NCBI GenBank assembly: GCA_947625595.1
Contig: CANQOX010000006.1
Coordinates: 1-42,069 of the forward strand
Length of the DNA stretch: 42,069 nucleotides
Reading direction: 5' to 3'
DNA from: an uncultured Clostridia bacterium
GTDB taxonomy: Bacteria; Bacillota; Clostridia; Christensenellales; Borkfalkiaceae
A program made the translations under genes and the position numbers. Of the stretch, positions 7,298 through 18,483 are shown in pieces. The notes beneath the pieces are model-generated. The model saw only the letters and a list, made by a program, of their open reading frames with translations, ran no database searches and was not told where the DNA came from. How positions within the stretch are numbered: the stretch's first letter is position 1; the number at the start of each line of letters is the position of its first letter.

Positions 7298-8872
7298 TCA
7301 GGCGCTCTCGGGGAAGGTCAGATCGGCGAGGACAGTCCAAGTTTGCTCCCCCGCCCCGCCAACGCTTTCGAGGACGTAGAGGACAAAGCCCCTCTTGCCG
7401 CTCTCCGCGCCGAAGGTCCGAATGTAGTAGTCGCCGACCTGCGCCCCTTCGACAAAGGCTGGCCCCTCCGCGCCGTGGAAAAATTGCGTCCCGCGCATGG
7501 TGAAGACTTTCTCCCAGTCCGTGCTCTTTCCCCGCCCGTCGGGCGAAGCGCCCCCGTTGACGTAGACGTCCCCCGTCCTGACGTTGAGATAATAGTCGCC
7601 CGCATAGCCCGCGGTCCCCTCCTCCAAGGGAGGCCTTGTCCCGTAATACCACTGCGTGACGCGGAGCCCCGTGCTCCTGCCGTTGATCTTCCACTCGTTG
7701 CCGTCGAGCTCGAAGGGGACCTCGGTGAGCGGCCTCCAGCCGTCCTCGAAGTTGCGGTAGATCCTTCCGCTCGCCGTGTCGATGTAGAAATCGCCGACGG
7801 CAGCGCCCGAGACGGAGAAGCCTTCGCCCTCCGCTCCCTCTGCCTTCGGTACGCCTGCGCCCGAAAACCACCGTGCGCCGTCTTCTCCGTCCTTGCCGTC
7901 CCTGCCGTTTTCGCCCGTTGCGGGAATGTGGGTATTGGTCTCGCCGATCCACCAAACGCCGTCCCTGATCTCGGGGACGGGGGCGTCCTTGCCCCGCGCG
8001 GGGACGTCGGTGAGGGTCCCGTCGATGACCCAATTCCCCGTCTCCCTGTCGATCGTCGGGGTCTTGCCGTCGGCGCCCGCCGCGCCGCGGGCGGGAAAGC
8101 CCGTCTTCTGCCCGTTGAGGATCCAGAAGCCGTCCTCGGAGATCGTGGGAAGGTCCCCCGTCGCCTTCTTGTCCGTCCTCTCGCCGTTGACCACCCAATA
8201 GCCGTCGTCATCGATCTCGGGCGTGACGCCGTCACTGCCTGCGGCCCTGACGTCCGTGCACGTTTCGCCGACGTACCAGTAGCCGTCCTTTTCGCCGTCT
8301 TCGGCCCTCCCGATATGGGGAACGACGGTCGCCGCGCCCGCGGCCTCCCCGTCGATGTACCATTTCCCCTCTCTGATCTCGAAGGAGTGCCAAGCCCGCT
8401 CGTCGGACTTCTTGTCGCCGATATACCAATAGCCGTCCTCGCCGATGCGGGGCGTGAGACCGTCCGTTGCGGCGGCGCGGACGTCCGTACACGTCCCACC
8501 GACGTACCAATAGCCGTCCTTCTCGCCGTCTTCGGCCCTTCCGATGTGCGGAACGACCGTCGTCCCGACGCCCTTGATGTTGAGGCCGACCGCCCAGCCC
8601 GCCTCCGTCCTCTCATAGACGTCGCCGCTGTCTTTGTCGATGTAAAAATCTCCCGCCGCGCCGAGTTCCTCCGACGGCGCTCCGCTGCCCGAATACCACC
8701 TTGTGCCCGCCGCAACGGGTCCGCTGTCCACGGCCCTGTGCTCTGCCTCCTGCCCGCCTGTCACGGCGAACAGAAGGGCTCCTGCCGCGACCGCCATGAG
8801 GCATGCGCAAAGCACGATCAATGTGAGCAGGACGGCGGATGTCCTGTCCTTTCCTCTGGATCTCGTACTCAT
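7298..8872 (-). CDS. Membrane-anchored modular repeat surface protein, with DGYWYxGxxxTDVxA repeats and GxGAP/GDxYxD/DVY modules
   Basis: N-terminal TM segment (TSAVLLTLIVLCACLMAVAAGALLFAVTGG); repeated DGYWYVGGTCTDVRAA, DGYWYIGDKKSDERA, DGYWVVNGERTDKKATG, DGFWILNGQKTGFPARG, GNWVIDGTLTDVPARG, DGVWWIGETNTHIPATG; modules TRWYSGSGAPSEELGAAGDFYIDKDSGDVYE and TQWYYGTRPP..GDYYLNVRTGDVYV. Confidence 0.8.
   Translation of the reverse strand: MSTRSRGKDRTSAVLLTLIVLCACLMAVAAGALLFAVTGGQEAEHRAVDSGPVAAGTRWYSGSGAPSEELGAAGDFYIDKDSGDVYERTEAGWAVGLNIKGVGTTVVPHIGRAEDGEKDGYWYVGGTCTDVRAAATDGLTPRIGEDGYWYIGDKKSDERAWHSFEIREGKWYIDGEAAGAATVVPHIGRAEDGEKDGYWYVGETCTDVRAAGSDGVTPEIDDDGYWVVNGERTDKKATGDLPTISEDGFWILNGQKTGFPARGAAGADGKTPTIDRETGNWVIDGTLTDVPARGKDAPVPEIRDGVWWIGETNTHIPATGENGRDGKDGEDGARWFSGAGVPKAEGAEGEGFSVSGAAVGDFYIDTASGRIYRNFEDGWRPLTEVPFELDGNEWKINGRSTGLRVTQWYYGTRPPLEEGTAGYAGDYYLNVRTGDVYVNGGASPDGRGKSTDWEKVFTMRGTQFFHGAEGPAFVEGAQVGDYYIRTFGAESGKRGFVLYVLESVGGAGEQTWTVLADLTFPESA
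8249..8331. repeat. Intragenic direct repeat copy A (83 bp)
   Basis: gacgtccgtgcacgtttcgccgacgtaccagtagccgtcc...aacgacggtcg; partner at 8480-8562, about ten differences counted by eye. Confidence 0.8.
8480..8562. repeat. Intragenic direct repeat copy B (83 bp)
   Basis: gacgtccgtacacgtcccaccgacgtaccaatagccgtcc...aacgaccgtcg; partner of 8249-8331. Confidence 0.8.
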
Positions 8873-13938: not shown

Positions 13939-14621
13939 TGTTCCCCCCTGTCCAAAAAGATCTCCGCAGCCGAGAGGGTGCAAATTTCCCCCTCCCGCTC
14001 CACGACCAGTCTGCCGTCTTCGAGAATGGCGCGGGCGACGGCCGTATATCGCTTTCCCCCCTCCTCCACGCCGATCTTCTGCCCCAAAAAGCGGACATGG
14101 GTGCGATATTCCTCAAACTCGGAGGGACGGAGAAAGTTCTCGATGAGCTTTTGCCGCACGGCTTCAACGGAGGGCGGGGCGACAAGTTCCCGCATGCTCA
14201 CCGCGATGCCGCCGAGGGAGGAGACGTCGTTTTCGACATTGAGGCCGACGCCGACGATGCTGTAGTCCACGCGGTCCCCTTTGAGGCCGTTCTCGATGAG
14301 AATGCCCGCGATCTTCCTGCCCGCCGCTCTGACGTCGTTGGGCCATTTGATCTCGGGCGAAATGCCGTATTCCTCCAAAGTCCTGCAGACGGCGACGGCG
14401 GCATGGGCCATGATGCGGAAGGATCTTGCCGCTACCATGTCCGCGGGGAAGGTGAGGAAAGAGACAAATACCCCACCCATGTCCGAGAGGAAGCTCCTCC
14501 CCTTCGTGCCCCGCCCGCCCGTCTGCATGTCGGCGGAAACGGTGACGTTTTCTCTCTTTGAAATGTACTGTCTGATATATTCGTTGGTGGAATCCACCGC
14601 CTTCAGATGCTCAATCCTCAT
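13935..14621 (-). CDS. birA: Biotin--[acetyl-CoA-carboxylase] ligase, no N-terminal HTH
   Basis: DSTNEYIRQ...QTGGRGTKGRSFLSDMGGVFVS...IKWPNDVRAAGRKIAGILIE...VGVGLNVEND. Confidence 0.92.
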   Translation of the reverse strand: MRIEHLKAVDSTNEYIRQYISKRENVTVSADMQTGGRGTKGRSFLSDMGGVFVSFLTFPADMVAARSFRIMAHAAVAVCRTLEEYGISPEIKWPNDVRAAGRKIAGILIENGLKGDRVDYSIVGVGLNVENDVSSLGGIAVSMRELVAPPSVEAVRQKLIENFLRPSEFEEYRTHVRFLGQKIGVEEGGKRYTAVARAILEDGRLVVEREGEICTLSAAEIFLDRGEQ

Positions 14622-15231
14622 CGTCTTCCCTCAAACTCTCCAAGGCCCGCTTTGCCGTCTCATAGTCGAAACCCTTGGATAGCAGGTTAGAATATGCCCG
14701 CTGGAGGACCTTTTTATCCGTCACGTCCTTGCCGCGGAGGAACTTCTTGAGGGCGTTTTTCGCCGCTTCGTCCTCCCCCGTAACGTCCGCAAGGGCCTCT
14801 GAAATGGCCTCGTCGGCGACGCCCTTGCGCTTGAGCTCGGCCTCGATGAGCCGCGCGCCCTTCCTCTTCGCCATGCTCTCAACGTAGGCACGGGCGTAGA
14901 CGGCGTCGTCAAGAAAGCCGTACTCGCGCATGCGGGCGATGACGTCGTCCTGCACGTCCTCGAGATAGCCCTTTTTCTTGAGAAAATCGCGGATCTCGCG
15001 CTCGGTCTTCATCGTCGCGGTGATGTGAAAGAGAGCCTTGTCGAGGGCGGTCTCCTTCTCGCTCTCGAGCTGGATCTTCGCAAGCTCCCCCTCGGAGATC
15101 TCCATGCCCGTCTTCAGGCGGTACTGCATGACCGTGACGAGGCTCATGCCGCAGTAAAATCTCCCGTCTACCTCGATGTTACAGCGGGTCTTGTCCTTCT
15201 TTTGCGGCGTGATGGCGGTGATCTGTGACAT
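14611..15231 (-). CDS. recX: Regulatory protein RecX
   Basis: KALFHITATMKTEREIRDFLKKKGYLEDVQDDVIARMREYGFLDDAVYARAYVESMAKRKGARLIEAELKRKGV. Confidence 0.92.
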   Translation of the reverse strand: MSQITAITPQKKDKTRCNIEVDGRFYCGMSLVTVMQYRLKTGMEISEGELAKIQLESEKETALDKALFHITATMKTEREIRDFLKKKGYLEDVQDDVIARMREYGFLDDAVYARAYVESMAKRKGARLIEAELKRKGVADEAISEALADVTGEDEAAKNALKKFLRGKDVTDKKVLQRAYSNLLSKGFDYETAKRALESLREDDED

Positions 15232-15243
15232 GGCTTTGCCCTA

Positions 15244-18042
15244 TTATTGCACGCCGTCGCTCGGCCAAGTGCGGTTGGCCTTGAACCAATCGGTGTCCTT
15301 CAGGATCGTCGAATTGTTGCTTCCCGTCACGGTGATGTCCGTCCCATTCGACCAAACGGTGATGAGGCCGTTCATCGAAGTGTAATTTTTCGTCGTTTTG
15401 TCGACGGAGAGCGTCGTGACGTAGATGTTCTTCGTGTACTTCGCGATACGGTTGATCGCATCCTGTGTGGGGAAAGTGTTTTCTTCCGTGGTGGTGTATT
15501 CCGTGGAGCCCGCACAGCAGCAGATGCACACGTATTCGGGCTGGATCACGGAGAGAAGGGCATCGTTCGAGGAGGTCTTACTGCCGTGGTGCCCCGCCTT
15601 GAAGAGCTCGCAGTGGGGAAGGGCGTTCTTCTGGACAAGGCTCTCCTCGCCTTCGAGCTCGAGATCGCCCGTAAAGAGATAGTGATTGTCCCCGTGCGTG
15701 AAGAGCGTGCAGACGGAATAATTGTTCTCATCGGACGAATTTATCTCGTAATATTTCTGATAGAGAATTTCAAAGGAGAGGCCTTCTGCGATCGTATAGC
15801 TCCTCTGTGCGCCGTTTGTCTCATTCCAACATTCCAACGCCGTGTAGTGCGTTGCCCCGTCATCGGAGACCTCTTTGTCGCGATAGGTGATGTAATCGGC
15901 GCTGATTTGTGAGGTTGTTTTTTTGCGCGCAAAATCGATGATCGTGCCGCACTTGAAATTCGCAAAGACACCTTTGGTGCCGTTGGTGCCAGTGGGCCCG
16001 ACAAAGGCTGCGATGTGGTCCTCGTGGGCGTGCGTGACGATGACGTATTCGAGAATGCCGTCGGTGCAGTGCTCCTTCAGGAACGACACAACGGCCGTCG
16101 CAGATTCCCGCTTGGACCCCGCGTCGATGAGGACTTCCGTGTCGCCCGATTTGAGGAGCATGCAGTCGCCCGCGTTACCGTTTCCAAGCTCGGGGAAATA
16201 GATGTTGACCTCGGCAACTGAAGCCCCTCCTCCCTCGGGCCCGCCACAGTTCTTGTAAGCATTTTGAAGAGCCTCCTTGGGTGTGCGGCGGCCGAGGACG
16301 ACATTCACAACGACGTCCGACATCTCCTGACGTGCCTTCGAGGAGCCGACAAATGCAGGGGTCGTAAAGAAACGATCGGTAAGTTGCGCCTCTACTTTTG
16401 CAACTTTGGCACTGACGAGTTGATTGCCCGTGAGCGGAATGCCCGTTTCGGGATCTTTCCCCTCGAGGAAATTTGCATAGGACTCCACGTCATAGACGTC
16501 CGTGCGCATGGGGTTATACCCGCTCACACTTGCGAATTTTGCCTGAAAATCGACGTCAAGGAGTTCCTTGACAAATTGGAAGGTCATGATCTCCTTCTCG
16601 GAGGCATTGGAAACGCCGTGGCCGCCCGTGAGCATGACAAGGGAAGGGCCTTGGCTGATACATTCGGCGTGCAGTTCTGGCGTGCCGTCGCCGTCCGCAT
16701 CGCGCATGACACCGGGAATGGGAGCGACTTCCGTCGTGAAATTGTTGCCAGCCATATATTGAGAGGCCGAAGAGGCGATGCAGAACACTGTGCCGCCCTC
16801 TTCGGGCCCCTTCACGAAGAGGTTGCTCGTGTAAGCGCCGTAGATCCCAAAGGTCGTGAAGTAGCCTTGGGGAGGATCATAGCGGTCGGCAAGGTCTGTG
16901 AGCCACTGCTTTGCGCCGTCGTTGTTAAAAAGATAGTGATTGTTGGGATCGGCGCTCGTGTAACCGAAGCCCTGTTGTTTGGCCATCGTGATGAACCAGT
17001 TCGCCTCGCTATCGTAACCGAGGGGCGTGCAGAGGGGCCACTTTTCCCTCGCCATCTCACAGATATCCCAAAGTTCGTCCCATGTGGTGGGAACTTCTGC
17101 ACCGAGCGCGTCGAGCGCATCGGGGTTGTAATAGAGAACTTCCGTGCTTTTGACAAAGGGAATGGTCAGAAGTGAATCTTCTGTAAATCCCGCGGCCTCG
17201 TATCCGCCGAAGTTTTCAGCCTTCCCCTCTTCCATATAGTTCGGAATGAAATTTTCGACATCGCTGTCGGAAAAGCCGATGCGACCGACCTTGTACCCCA
17301 TTCCGTCAATATTGTAGGTATAGGAGCGGGAATCGGTGAGATATTCACCCATATCGACGACCTTGCCCGAATCGAGATATTCGGCGACATGGTCGGCGTA
17401 GCAATAGGCGAGGTCGGGTTGAAGGCCGCCTTTGAGCCCGTTTTTGACCTGATCAAAGACATCATCATAGGAGCCGACCTGAACGTGATCCACCGTCCAC
17501 CCGGGGTACTTCGTCTCGAATTCCTGAATGGCTGTTTCCGTAACGGCCTGATATTTGCTGCCTTGAGAGGAATAGAACACGATGGTGTGATCGTAGGGAT
17601 TCGAAACCTGCGGACCATTGCCGCCTTGGCCTCCCTTGATGTTGCCGTGGACGCTCCAATGGCCGCTCTCCTTGGCGTAGACGTCGTAGGTCTCAAAGTC
17701 GAGATAGAGGTCACCGTCCTTGCCGAGCGTGTCCGCGGGGGCGCCGTCGCCGTAATGCCAGCCGTTTCCCGTGTCGCCCTTGGGACCTGCGGGGCCTGCG
17801 GGGCCCGTTTCGCCCTTGACGGACAGAAGCCACTCATCGTAGGTCAGCGGCTTCTCACCCTTCTCGGCACAGCGTTCGACATAGAGGTCGTAGATGGAGC
17901 GAATGGAGTCATCCTCCGTCTGCGTCACGCCGCCCAAACTGCCCGCGCCCCATGACCCGAACGAGCAGGCGCACGCGCCCACCGCGATCATGCAGCAGAG
18001 GCAGAAGGTCAAAAGGACACGAAAGAAATTTTTCTTTTTCAT
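15244..18042 (-). CDS. Multidomain lipoprotein: collagen-like/GAP-module stalk, ABC-type extracellular solute-binding domain, ComEC-like MBL-fold hydrolase domain
   Basis: Signal/lipobox MKKKNFFRVLLTFCLCCMIAVGACAC; KGETGPAGPAGPKGDTGNGWHYGDGAPADTLGKDGDLYLDFETYDVYAK; SBP features TIVFYSSQGSKYQAVTETAIQEFETKYPG...PFVKSTEVLYYNPDALDALGAEVPTTWDELWDICE; linker NCGGPEGGGASVAE; MBL features VTHAHEDHIAAF, LFTGDLELEGE, FKAGHHGSKTSSNDALL. RBS AGGAGACAACGCT precedes ATG at 18042. Confidence 0.88.
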   Translation of the reverse strand: MKKKNFFRVLLTFCLCCMIAVGACACSFGSWGAGSLGGVTQTEDDSIRSIYDLYVERCAEKGEKPLTYDEWLLSVKGETGPAGPAGPKGDTGNGWHYGDGAPADTLGKDGDLYLDFETYDVYAKESGHWSVHGNIKGGQGGNGPQVSNPYDHTIVFYSSQGSKYQAVTETAIQEFETKYPGWTVDHVQVGSYDDVFDQVKNGLKGGLQPDLAYCYADHVAEYLDSGKVVDMGEYLTDSRSYTYNIDGMGYKVGRIGFSDSDVENFIPNYMEEGKAENFGGYEAAGFTEDSLLTIPFVKSTEVLYYNPDALDALGAEVPTTWDELWDICEMAREKWPLCTPLGYDSEANWFITMAKQQGFGYTSADPNNHYLFNNDGAKQWLTDLADRYDPPQGYFTTFGIYGAYTSNLFVKGPEEGGTVFCIASSASQYMAGNNFTTEVAPIPGVMRDADGDGTPELHAECISQGPSLVMLTGGHGVSNASEKEIMTFQFVKELLDVDFQAKFASVSGYNPMRTDVYDVESYANFLEGKDPETGIPLTGNQLVSAKVAKVEAQLTDRFFTTPAFVGSSKARQEMSDVVVNVVLGRRTPKEALQNAYKNCGGPEGGGASVAEVNIYFPELGNGNAGDCMLLKSGDTEVLIDAGSKRESATAVVSFLKEHCTDGILEYVIVTHAHEDHIAAFVGPTGTNGTKGVFANFKCGTIIDFARKKTTSQISADYITYRDKEVSDDGATHYTALECWNETNGAQRSYTIAEGLSFEILYQKYYEINSSDENNYSVCTLFTHGDNHYLFTGDLELEGEESLVQKNALPHCELFKAGHHGSKTSSNDALLSVIQPEYVCICCCAGSTEYTTTEENTFPTQDAINRIAKYTKNIYVTTLSVDKTTKNYTSMNGLITVWSNGTDITVTGSNNSTILKDTDWFKANRTWPSDGVQ

Positions 18043-18104
18043 AGCGTTGTCTCCTGCTTTTTTCTGTATTGTTGCGTTTTTTGATTGCCTGAAATCAAAA
18101 AATA

Positions 18105-18126
18105 ACATTTGTTATATAACATATGT
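18105..18126. promoter_or_regulatory. 22-bp near-perfect palindrome upstream of the SBP-MBL lipoprotein gene (candidate operator)
   Basis: acatttgttatataacatatgt; symmetric about 18115/18116 with a single mismatched pair. Confidence 0.45.
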
Positions 18127-18138
18127 CATTTTCTGTCG

Positions 18139-18483
18139 TCAGACGAGGCCGAGCGCCGAGGCGATGTTGACGACCGCTTCATCGATGTTGTGCAGAAACT
18201 TATTGATCGCGGTCTGTGCGCCCCTGTCGATCTCGCCGTCCTCAACCGTGCGGAGGACTGCGACGATCATGTCGAAATTGTTGTAGATGATGCCGCACTC
18301 GATGTCGAGGGCCTTCATCACAGGGTCCTCGCTCCCGTGCTGGATGCGGTAAAGCTCCTTGACCTCGGCATTCATCTCGGGAAAGAGGGCCACGTCGCCC
18401 CGTTCGAAGAGCGCCTTCATCGTCTGGTTCAGAGAGTAGAGCGCCCTGATAAATTCCTCATGTGTTCCGTTTGCTTCCGTCAC
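18139..18483 (-). CDS. Hypothetical protein, 114 aa
   Basis: ORF overlaps the upstream pyrophosphorylase gene stop by 4 nt (coupled); alpha-helical appearance. Confidence 0.65.
   Translation of the reverse strand: MTEANGTHEEFIRALYSLNQTMKALFERGDVALFPEMNAEVKELYRIQHGSEDPVMKALDIECGIIYNNFDMIVAVLRTVEDGEIDRGAQTAINKFLHNIDEAVVNIASALGLV

Follow-up and report, generated by a model that had tools for sequence, protein, structure and literature searches.

Why a solute-binding protein (SBP) and a ComEC-like hydrolase of the metallo-beta-lactamase (MBL) fold should share one polypeptide chain, whether they truly do so, and how such a chain could have arisen are questions raised by a gene of an uncultured Clostridia bacterium, contained in the stretch of 42,069 nucleotides analysed here as a whole (the window). 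The usual ligands of SBPs are small molecules, not polymers. An initial annotation, made from the sequence alone, had read a single 932-residue frame encoding both parts, and this frame is present on the minus strand, with its ATG at 18042 and its stop codon ending at 15244. A ribosome-binding site (AGGAG, 18051-18055) lies eight bases 5' of the ATG, and a search for a sigma-70-type promoter consensus 5' of the gene found none. The parts of the gene and its immediate neighbours are as follows.

15244..18042, minus strand: whole coding sequence of the SBP-MBL fusion, a predicted lipoprotein of 932 amino acids, plus stop
17971..18042, minus strand: lipoprotein signal peptide up to the lipobox cysteine, VGA-C24
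17767..17814, minus strand: short collagen-like GxxGxxGxx stretch, residues 77-92, GETGPAGPAGPKGDTG
17623..17766, minus strand: W..GxGAP..GDxYxD..DVY module, residues 93-140
16240..17601, minus strand: complete mature SBP domain, residues 148-601, of the UgpB/dinucleotide-binding cluster (Pfam SBP_bac_8, model and Foldseek)
16210..16239, minus strand: Gly-rich linker PEGGGASVAE, residues 602-611, immediately after the final SBP residues
15247..16209, minus strand: ComEC-type MBL domain, residues 612-932 (Pfam Lactamase_B, model and Foldseek)
16015..16032, minus strand: metal motif HAHEDH, residues 671-676, with H671, D675 and H676 invariant in 79 MBLs and residue 673 either H or D
15664..15666, minus strand: metal ligand D793 of FTGDLE, counterpart of ComEC D700 (PMC12455585)
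15580..15594, minus strand: GHHGS, residues 817-821, with H818 and S821 the counterparts of ComEC H725 and S728
18139..18483, minus strand: upstream neighbour, a 114-residue protein, a conserved part of the syntenic block
14611..15231, minus strand: recX, the conserved downstream neighbour, beginning 12 nt past the fusion stop

All motifs quoted in the initial annotation were found (VGAC24, the collagen-like stretch, the GDxYxD module, PEGGGASVAE, and THAHEDH, FTGDLE and GHHGS); the collagen-like stalk it described is present, but extends over only about five triplets. The SBP domain is full length, as had been claimed: its match to Pfam SBP_bac_8 starts at residue 148 and scores 96.9 bits against a cut-off of 27 (E 2e-27), and Foldseek recovers the two-lobed SBP fold. 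The MBL domain matches Lactamase_B at 47.6 bits against a cut-off of 22.7 (E 3e-12), and the predicted structures have a pLDDT of 96.6 for the SBP and 96.2 for the MBL. Judged by its signal peptide, the protein would be anchored by lipid. A second copy of the collagen/GDxYxD part, 43-46% identical to the fusion stalk, occurs beside secA in a 524-residue frame (7298-8872 of the window, minus strand), and a search of phages with the stalk gave a match limited to this same part, a tail-fibre-type module of Erwinia phages.

The initial annotation had allowed that the frame might prove to be a merge at about 16210-16260. A second species of the same genus, represented by a rabbit-gut MAG (G032, CANREK010000048.1), has a 910-residue frame with a lipoprotein N-terminus, an SBP and an MBL in the same order. 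In this genome and in that of the window (G000) the gene occupies the same locus, GH36 - UDPGP - 114-residue protein - fusion gene - recX - birA - NAXD. Most of the 13 genomes compared share this gene order, and the others share part of it, up to where the read stretch or contig ends. Because this independently assembled genome also joins SBP and MBL in a single frame, and at the corresponding syntenic position, the fusion is real and misassembly is rejected. Draft metagenome assemblies in both cases, and the rarity of the fusion, could be cited in favour of a functionless product of misassembly or accidental read-through, but with two independent assemblies, SBPs 78% identical, differing linkers and MBL paralogues, and an open frame under purifying selection at one syntenic site in both genomes, we regard such an explanation as exceedingly improbable.

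Of the genus's 103 genomes, 91 have the MBL gene and 19 a member of the SBP family (threshold E<=1e-80), and only two have both in one frame. A search of 398 genomes of the family found no fusion beyond these two (2/398), which rules out a widespread architecture and with it the initial annotation's alternative of an already common family; nor did an order sample of 396 genomes, searched with the MBL and inspected for its longest frames, yield a further one. No plasmid record spans more than 56% of the fusion protein. On one Sinorhizobium plasmid an SBP gene and an MBL gene lie side by side as separate genes, but the match is weak (21.5%) and its relevance doubtful. A literature search, partial in coverage and so weak evidence, found no SBP-MBL fusion. 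The components, and the SNase-linked importer considered below, are of known kinds; the single-chain SBP-MBL enzyme is what may be new.

The origin of the fusion can be read from its relatives. Those at the same site are stalk- or membrane-anchored MBL proteins without an SBP, and residues 1-143 of the fusion correspond to the N-terminus of stand-alone MBL lipoproteins of the genus, in which the MBL follows directly. Since the relatives have the MBL at the locus, behind the same N-terminus and without an SBP, it was the SBP that entered, between the stalk and the enzyme; the first residue of the inserted segment corresponds to the start of mature stand-alone SBPs, and the last to their final residues. 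The initial annotation had overlooked this mobile insertion of an SBP into an MBL lipoprotein that is present genus-wide. In the SBP tree the two fused SBPs form one clade (support 100/100), nested in the SBPs of the genus, whereas in the MBL tree the two fusion MBLs fall into different paralogue groups, with a single clade rejected (AU p=1.1e-5); the N-termini of the G000 and G032 fusions differ too. Inheritance of the whole fusion, intact and once, is ruled out by that rejection, and the SBP, forming one clade while its MBLs are different paralogues, has therefore behaved as a mobile domain.

Between G000 and G032, synonymous divergence is 0.45 in the SBP against 0.74-1.33 in five flanking genes; in a short stretch of the slow araA it comes to 0.47, and in the MBL it is saturated. 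The simplest reading of these sequences is that the SBP module would have been shifted by recombination between resident MBL genes, via either a second insertion or an exchange of the MBL. Two tandem MBL genes, one membrane-anchored and the other a stalk lipoprotein, are present at the locus in several species (L037, L038, L039 and L041). Such tandem genes are likely the raw material for domain exchange. The dN/dS ratio is below 1 for both domains (about 0.33 for the SBP), and 88/94 (G000) and 89/94 (G032) of the family-conserved SBP positions are retained. Architecture, insertion, conservation, homology and synteny were all computed.

The assignment of the enzyme as a ComEC-like MBL is borne out, as the MBL domain of ComEC ranks first by both profile (9vc6, the six top matches all being ComEC) and fold (the MBL domain of 9ic4, by Foldseek). 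In the ComEC of Moorella glycerini, residues H598, D600, D602, H603, D700, H725 and S728 were mutated as metal ligands or putative DNA-binding residues, and most of the mutations abolish activity, D600A giving about a fivefold decrease (PMC12455585). Their counterparts in the fusion are H671, H673, D675, H676, D793, H818 and S821, six of the seven being invariant in the 79 MBLs. The likeness to the C-terminal MBL of ComEC/Rec2 (PDB 9ic4; PMC12455585, PMC8579336) thus lies in the best profile and fold match and in conserved catalytic residues, but the fusion has neither the competence channel domain nor the ComEC OB fold, and its predicted anchor is that of a lipoprotein. Because the Pfam Competence (channel) domain has no match in the fusion protein, and the score for ComEC_Rec2 (TIGR00361) is 62 bits, far under the cut-off of 190.05, the protein, judged by these models, is not a ComEC. 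Defence-system models gave matches at the level of the MBL only (LmuA, Avs1a and RTasMBL).

Elsewhere in the order the same MBL is joined to LRR_5, Big_3 or List-Bact repeats, MBG, collagen or a plain membrane anchor; the SBP is therefore one of several N-terminal partners, and, of those seen, it alone brings a fold that binds small molecules. As many of these MBL proteins carry non-catalytic N-terminal modules, the SBP might serve only for presentation or adhesion and capture nothing, in a family that swaps its N-terminal modules freely, and the alteration of the conserved SSGGA motif in both fused SBPs would fit such a role. We nevertheless think it improbable, given that most family-conserved SBP positions and several pocket counterparts are retained, that dN/dS is as low as stated, and that the SBP comes from a nuclease-linked system, a functional match. 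Two loci of the order (L119:1314-7154 and L120:1347-5546) encode two to four tandem MBL domains with MBG-like repeats between them, HxHxDH being kept by the first domain only. Giant frames of more than 4000 residues are found some 7 kb away from the MBL gene at L034, L036 and L073 (G031:C5, G026:C9 and G046:C7), and those of G031 and G026 contain a collagen/GDxYxD module as in the fusion.

The nuclease-linked system emerges from a genome scan of contigs, the probes of which were both taken from the SBP, so that it is silent on MBL-only relatives. An SNase gene (Pfam match, E 2e-12) adjoins the SBP in 78 of the 80 SBP loci kept, and in these SNase-bearing loci MalK-, MalF- and MalG-like genes nearly always precede the SBP where the contig is long enough; the two loci without SNase are the G032 fusion and one orphan 596-residue protein. 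The loci range over Clostridia, Bacilli, Erysipelotrichaceae, Oscillospiraceae and Acholeplasmatales. Many of the operons (stand-alone loci L064-L071 and L139-L218) add a lipoprotein of 1300-1500 residues with atrophied Ig (aBig) domains and a weak OB-fold match.

A system of similar gene content is known from mycoplasmas. In Mycoplasma agalactiae the genes for the P80 SBP, the MAG_5040 SNase and ABC components are co-transcribed, and MAG_5040 has nuclease activity (PMC3585158); the authors propose that the system imports precursors of nucleic acids and that P80 is its binding protein (PMC3585158; review PMC9740415). The mycoplasma SNase-ABC operon (MAG_5030/P80, MAG_5040, MAG_5050-5070; mhp379 and relatives) clusters an SBP lipoprotein, an SNase, an ATPase and two permeases, as do the loci of the stand-alone SBP relatives, and Acholeplasmatales members were found within the SBP family. 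The ATPase-permease-permease-SBP-SNase operon is likely a non-mycoplasma counterpart of the mycoplasma nuclease-ABC system. By contrast, the fused SBP is joined to another nuclease fold, the MBL, and its locus is a different one that has neither permease nor SNase close by: an SNase gene stands beside the SBP and ABC genes of the stand-alone relatives, but not beside the window's gene or in its genome.

As the initial annotation had stated, no cognate permease genes lie within the window. In its genome, no permease orthologous to the usual partner of the SBP was found (the best has 28% identity), nor any SNase, absences that, in a genome 88% complete, are no more than suggestive. G032 has, besides the fusion, a canonical operon that includes permeases, and almost every other SBP of the family has importer genes alongside its own, from which it could be argued that the fused SBP continues to work for an ABC importer: it would dock to a permease, with the MBL as an attached feeder enzyme whose products are captured for import. 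The lack of an orthologous permease and of SNase in the window's genome, and the position of the SBP, wedged between two domains, nonetheless lead us to give this explanation little credence.

For the SBP, the initial annotation had named UgpB-like proteins as nearest; UgpB in fact comes next, the closest solved structure being a Thermus dinucleotide-binding protein (profile E about 1e-29; Foldseek E 2.6e-22, 7C0x). The 7C0F series comprises the Thermus thermophilus ABC dinucleotide-binding protein, including a co-crystal with UpG (Chandravanshi et al. 2021, cited in PMC12718374). It is the best match of the SBP and has several presumed pocket residues in common with it, but identity is about 20%, and the Thermus protein is a stand-alone importer component with no enzyme. 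UgpB (PDB 4AQ4, 6X84 and 9LFF) is a full-length profile match of the same fold family, but ranks below the dinucleotide binder, and its ligands are G3P, GPC and G1P. Eight Thermus residues that were mutated in the deposited structures were compared (index being PDB number + 2, confirmed in part); since they form the mutated set, they presumably line the dinucleotide pocket. In the printed alignment Y56, S127 and Q274 are identical in the fusion (Y192, S299 and Q464), F79, N81 and T240 correspond to Y215, D217 and S424, and for Y224 and Y246 no aromatic residue clearly corresponds. Both fused SBPs have the conserved CIGSSGGA..Q changed to CIASS-AS..M at residues 421-430, aligned with part of the pocket, and ligand preference may therefore have shifted, or binding may be weaker.

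Because the SBP family has a secreted SNase as its operon partner, the closest structure is that of a dinucleotide binder and the nuclease residues of ComEC are retained in the MBL, we favour a nucleic-acid substrate, and assign a probability of about 0.58 to the protein being a membrane-tethered surface nuclease with a built-in nucleotide- or oligonucleotide-binding domain. The suggestion in the initial annotation of a device that captures and cleaves nucleic acid holds for the architecture, and the three lines of evidence just given agree with it, while activity and ligand are predicted. A more specific and more tentative proposal, which we place somewhat below even odds, is that the binding protein of an importer has been re-used as a mobile domain recruiting substrate to a tethered ComEC-type nuclease, independently of the ABC transporter. 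An SBP paralogue of the nuclease-linked ABC importer, minus its signal peptide, would have entered between the anchor and the catalytic domain of a resident MBL lipoprotein. The lipid anchor and short stalk would keep the protein at the outer face of the membrane; the lobes of the SBP would shut on a dinucleotide or an oligonucleotide end, raising its local concentration, and the MBL site, with two metals, probably Mn2+, would cleave the phosphodiester backbone. Other systems would then take up the products or, in G032, which has the canonical transporter, the products would be handed to that transporter. The metal, the nuclease activity, the ligand and the handover of products are all put forward as predictions. 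ComEC offers a precedent for this logic, in that an in-chain OB fold boosts the activity of its MBL domain markedly via a higher local DNA concentration (PMC12455585).

Against the tethered-nuclease reading stand the identity of only about 20% to the nearest solved structures, the changed pocket motif, the small size of usual SBP ligands, the presence of the fusion in two species only, and the structural nearness of the MBL to Pce. Pce (CbpE), the pneumococcal phosphorylcholine esterase, removes phosphorylcholine from teichoic acid. An MBL-fold protein (PDB 2BIB) and, like the fusion, a modular surface protein, it is the second match of the MBL by fold (2bib, E 9e-14), and among matches to the SBP the UgpB structures come next after the dinucleotide binder. 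The main rival, which we consider unlikely, accordingly takes the fusion for a cell-envelope phosphodiesterase, in which the substrate cut by a Pce-like MBL is teichoic acid or a glycerophosphodiester, and the ligand held by a UgpB-like SBP is glycerol-3-phosphate, glycerophosphocholine or a unit of teichoic acid. Yet ComEC leads by fold and supplies the six best profile matches of the MBL, the dinucleotide binder outranks UgpB by sequence and by fold, and the operon partner of the SBP family is an SNase (in a loci scan not aimed at glycerophosphodiesterases). Pce differs in its substrate, its lower fold rank and its attachment by choline-binding repeats; no such repeat is among the Pfam matches of the fusion protein.

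One further element lies upstream of the fusion gene.

18102..18129, no strand assigned: 28-bp operator-like palindrome, ATAACATnTGTTATATAACAnATGTTAT

The palindrome also occurs at C22:7525-7552 and C66:3690-3717 of the window's genome. Within the genus it is present in 25 of the 103 genomes, at 1-8 copies per genome, and the reversed control gave zero. Several stand-alone MBL genes of relatives have it on their 5' side, as do two genes for TetR-like regulators (L230 and L237), and it is also found close to genes for giant surface proteins. From these positions, the palindrome is probably the operator of a surface-protein regulon.

If the tethered-nuclease reading is true, an SBP has taken on the recruitment of substrate for an extracellular enzyme, a task unusual for SBPs, and whether uncultured gut Clostridia scavenge nucleic acid could be tested directly. 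The conserved ATPase-permease-SBP-SNase operon of Clostridia, Bacilli and Acholeplasmatales would likewise be tied to a dinucleotide-binding structure, which would make the ligand of the long-postulated mycoplasma nucleotide importer testable.
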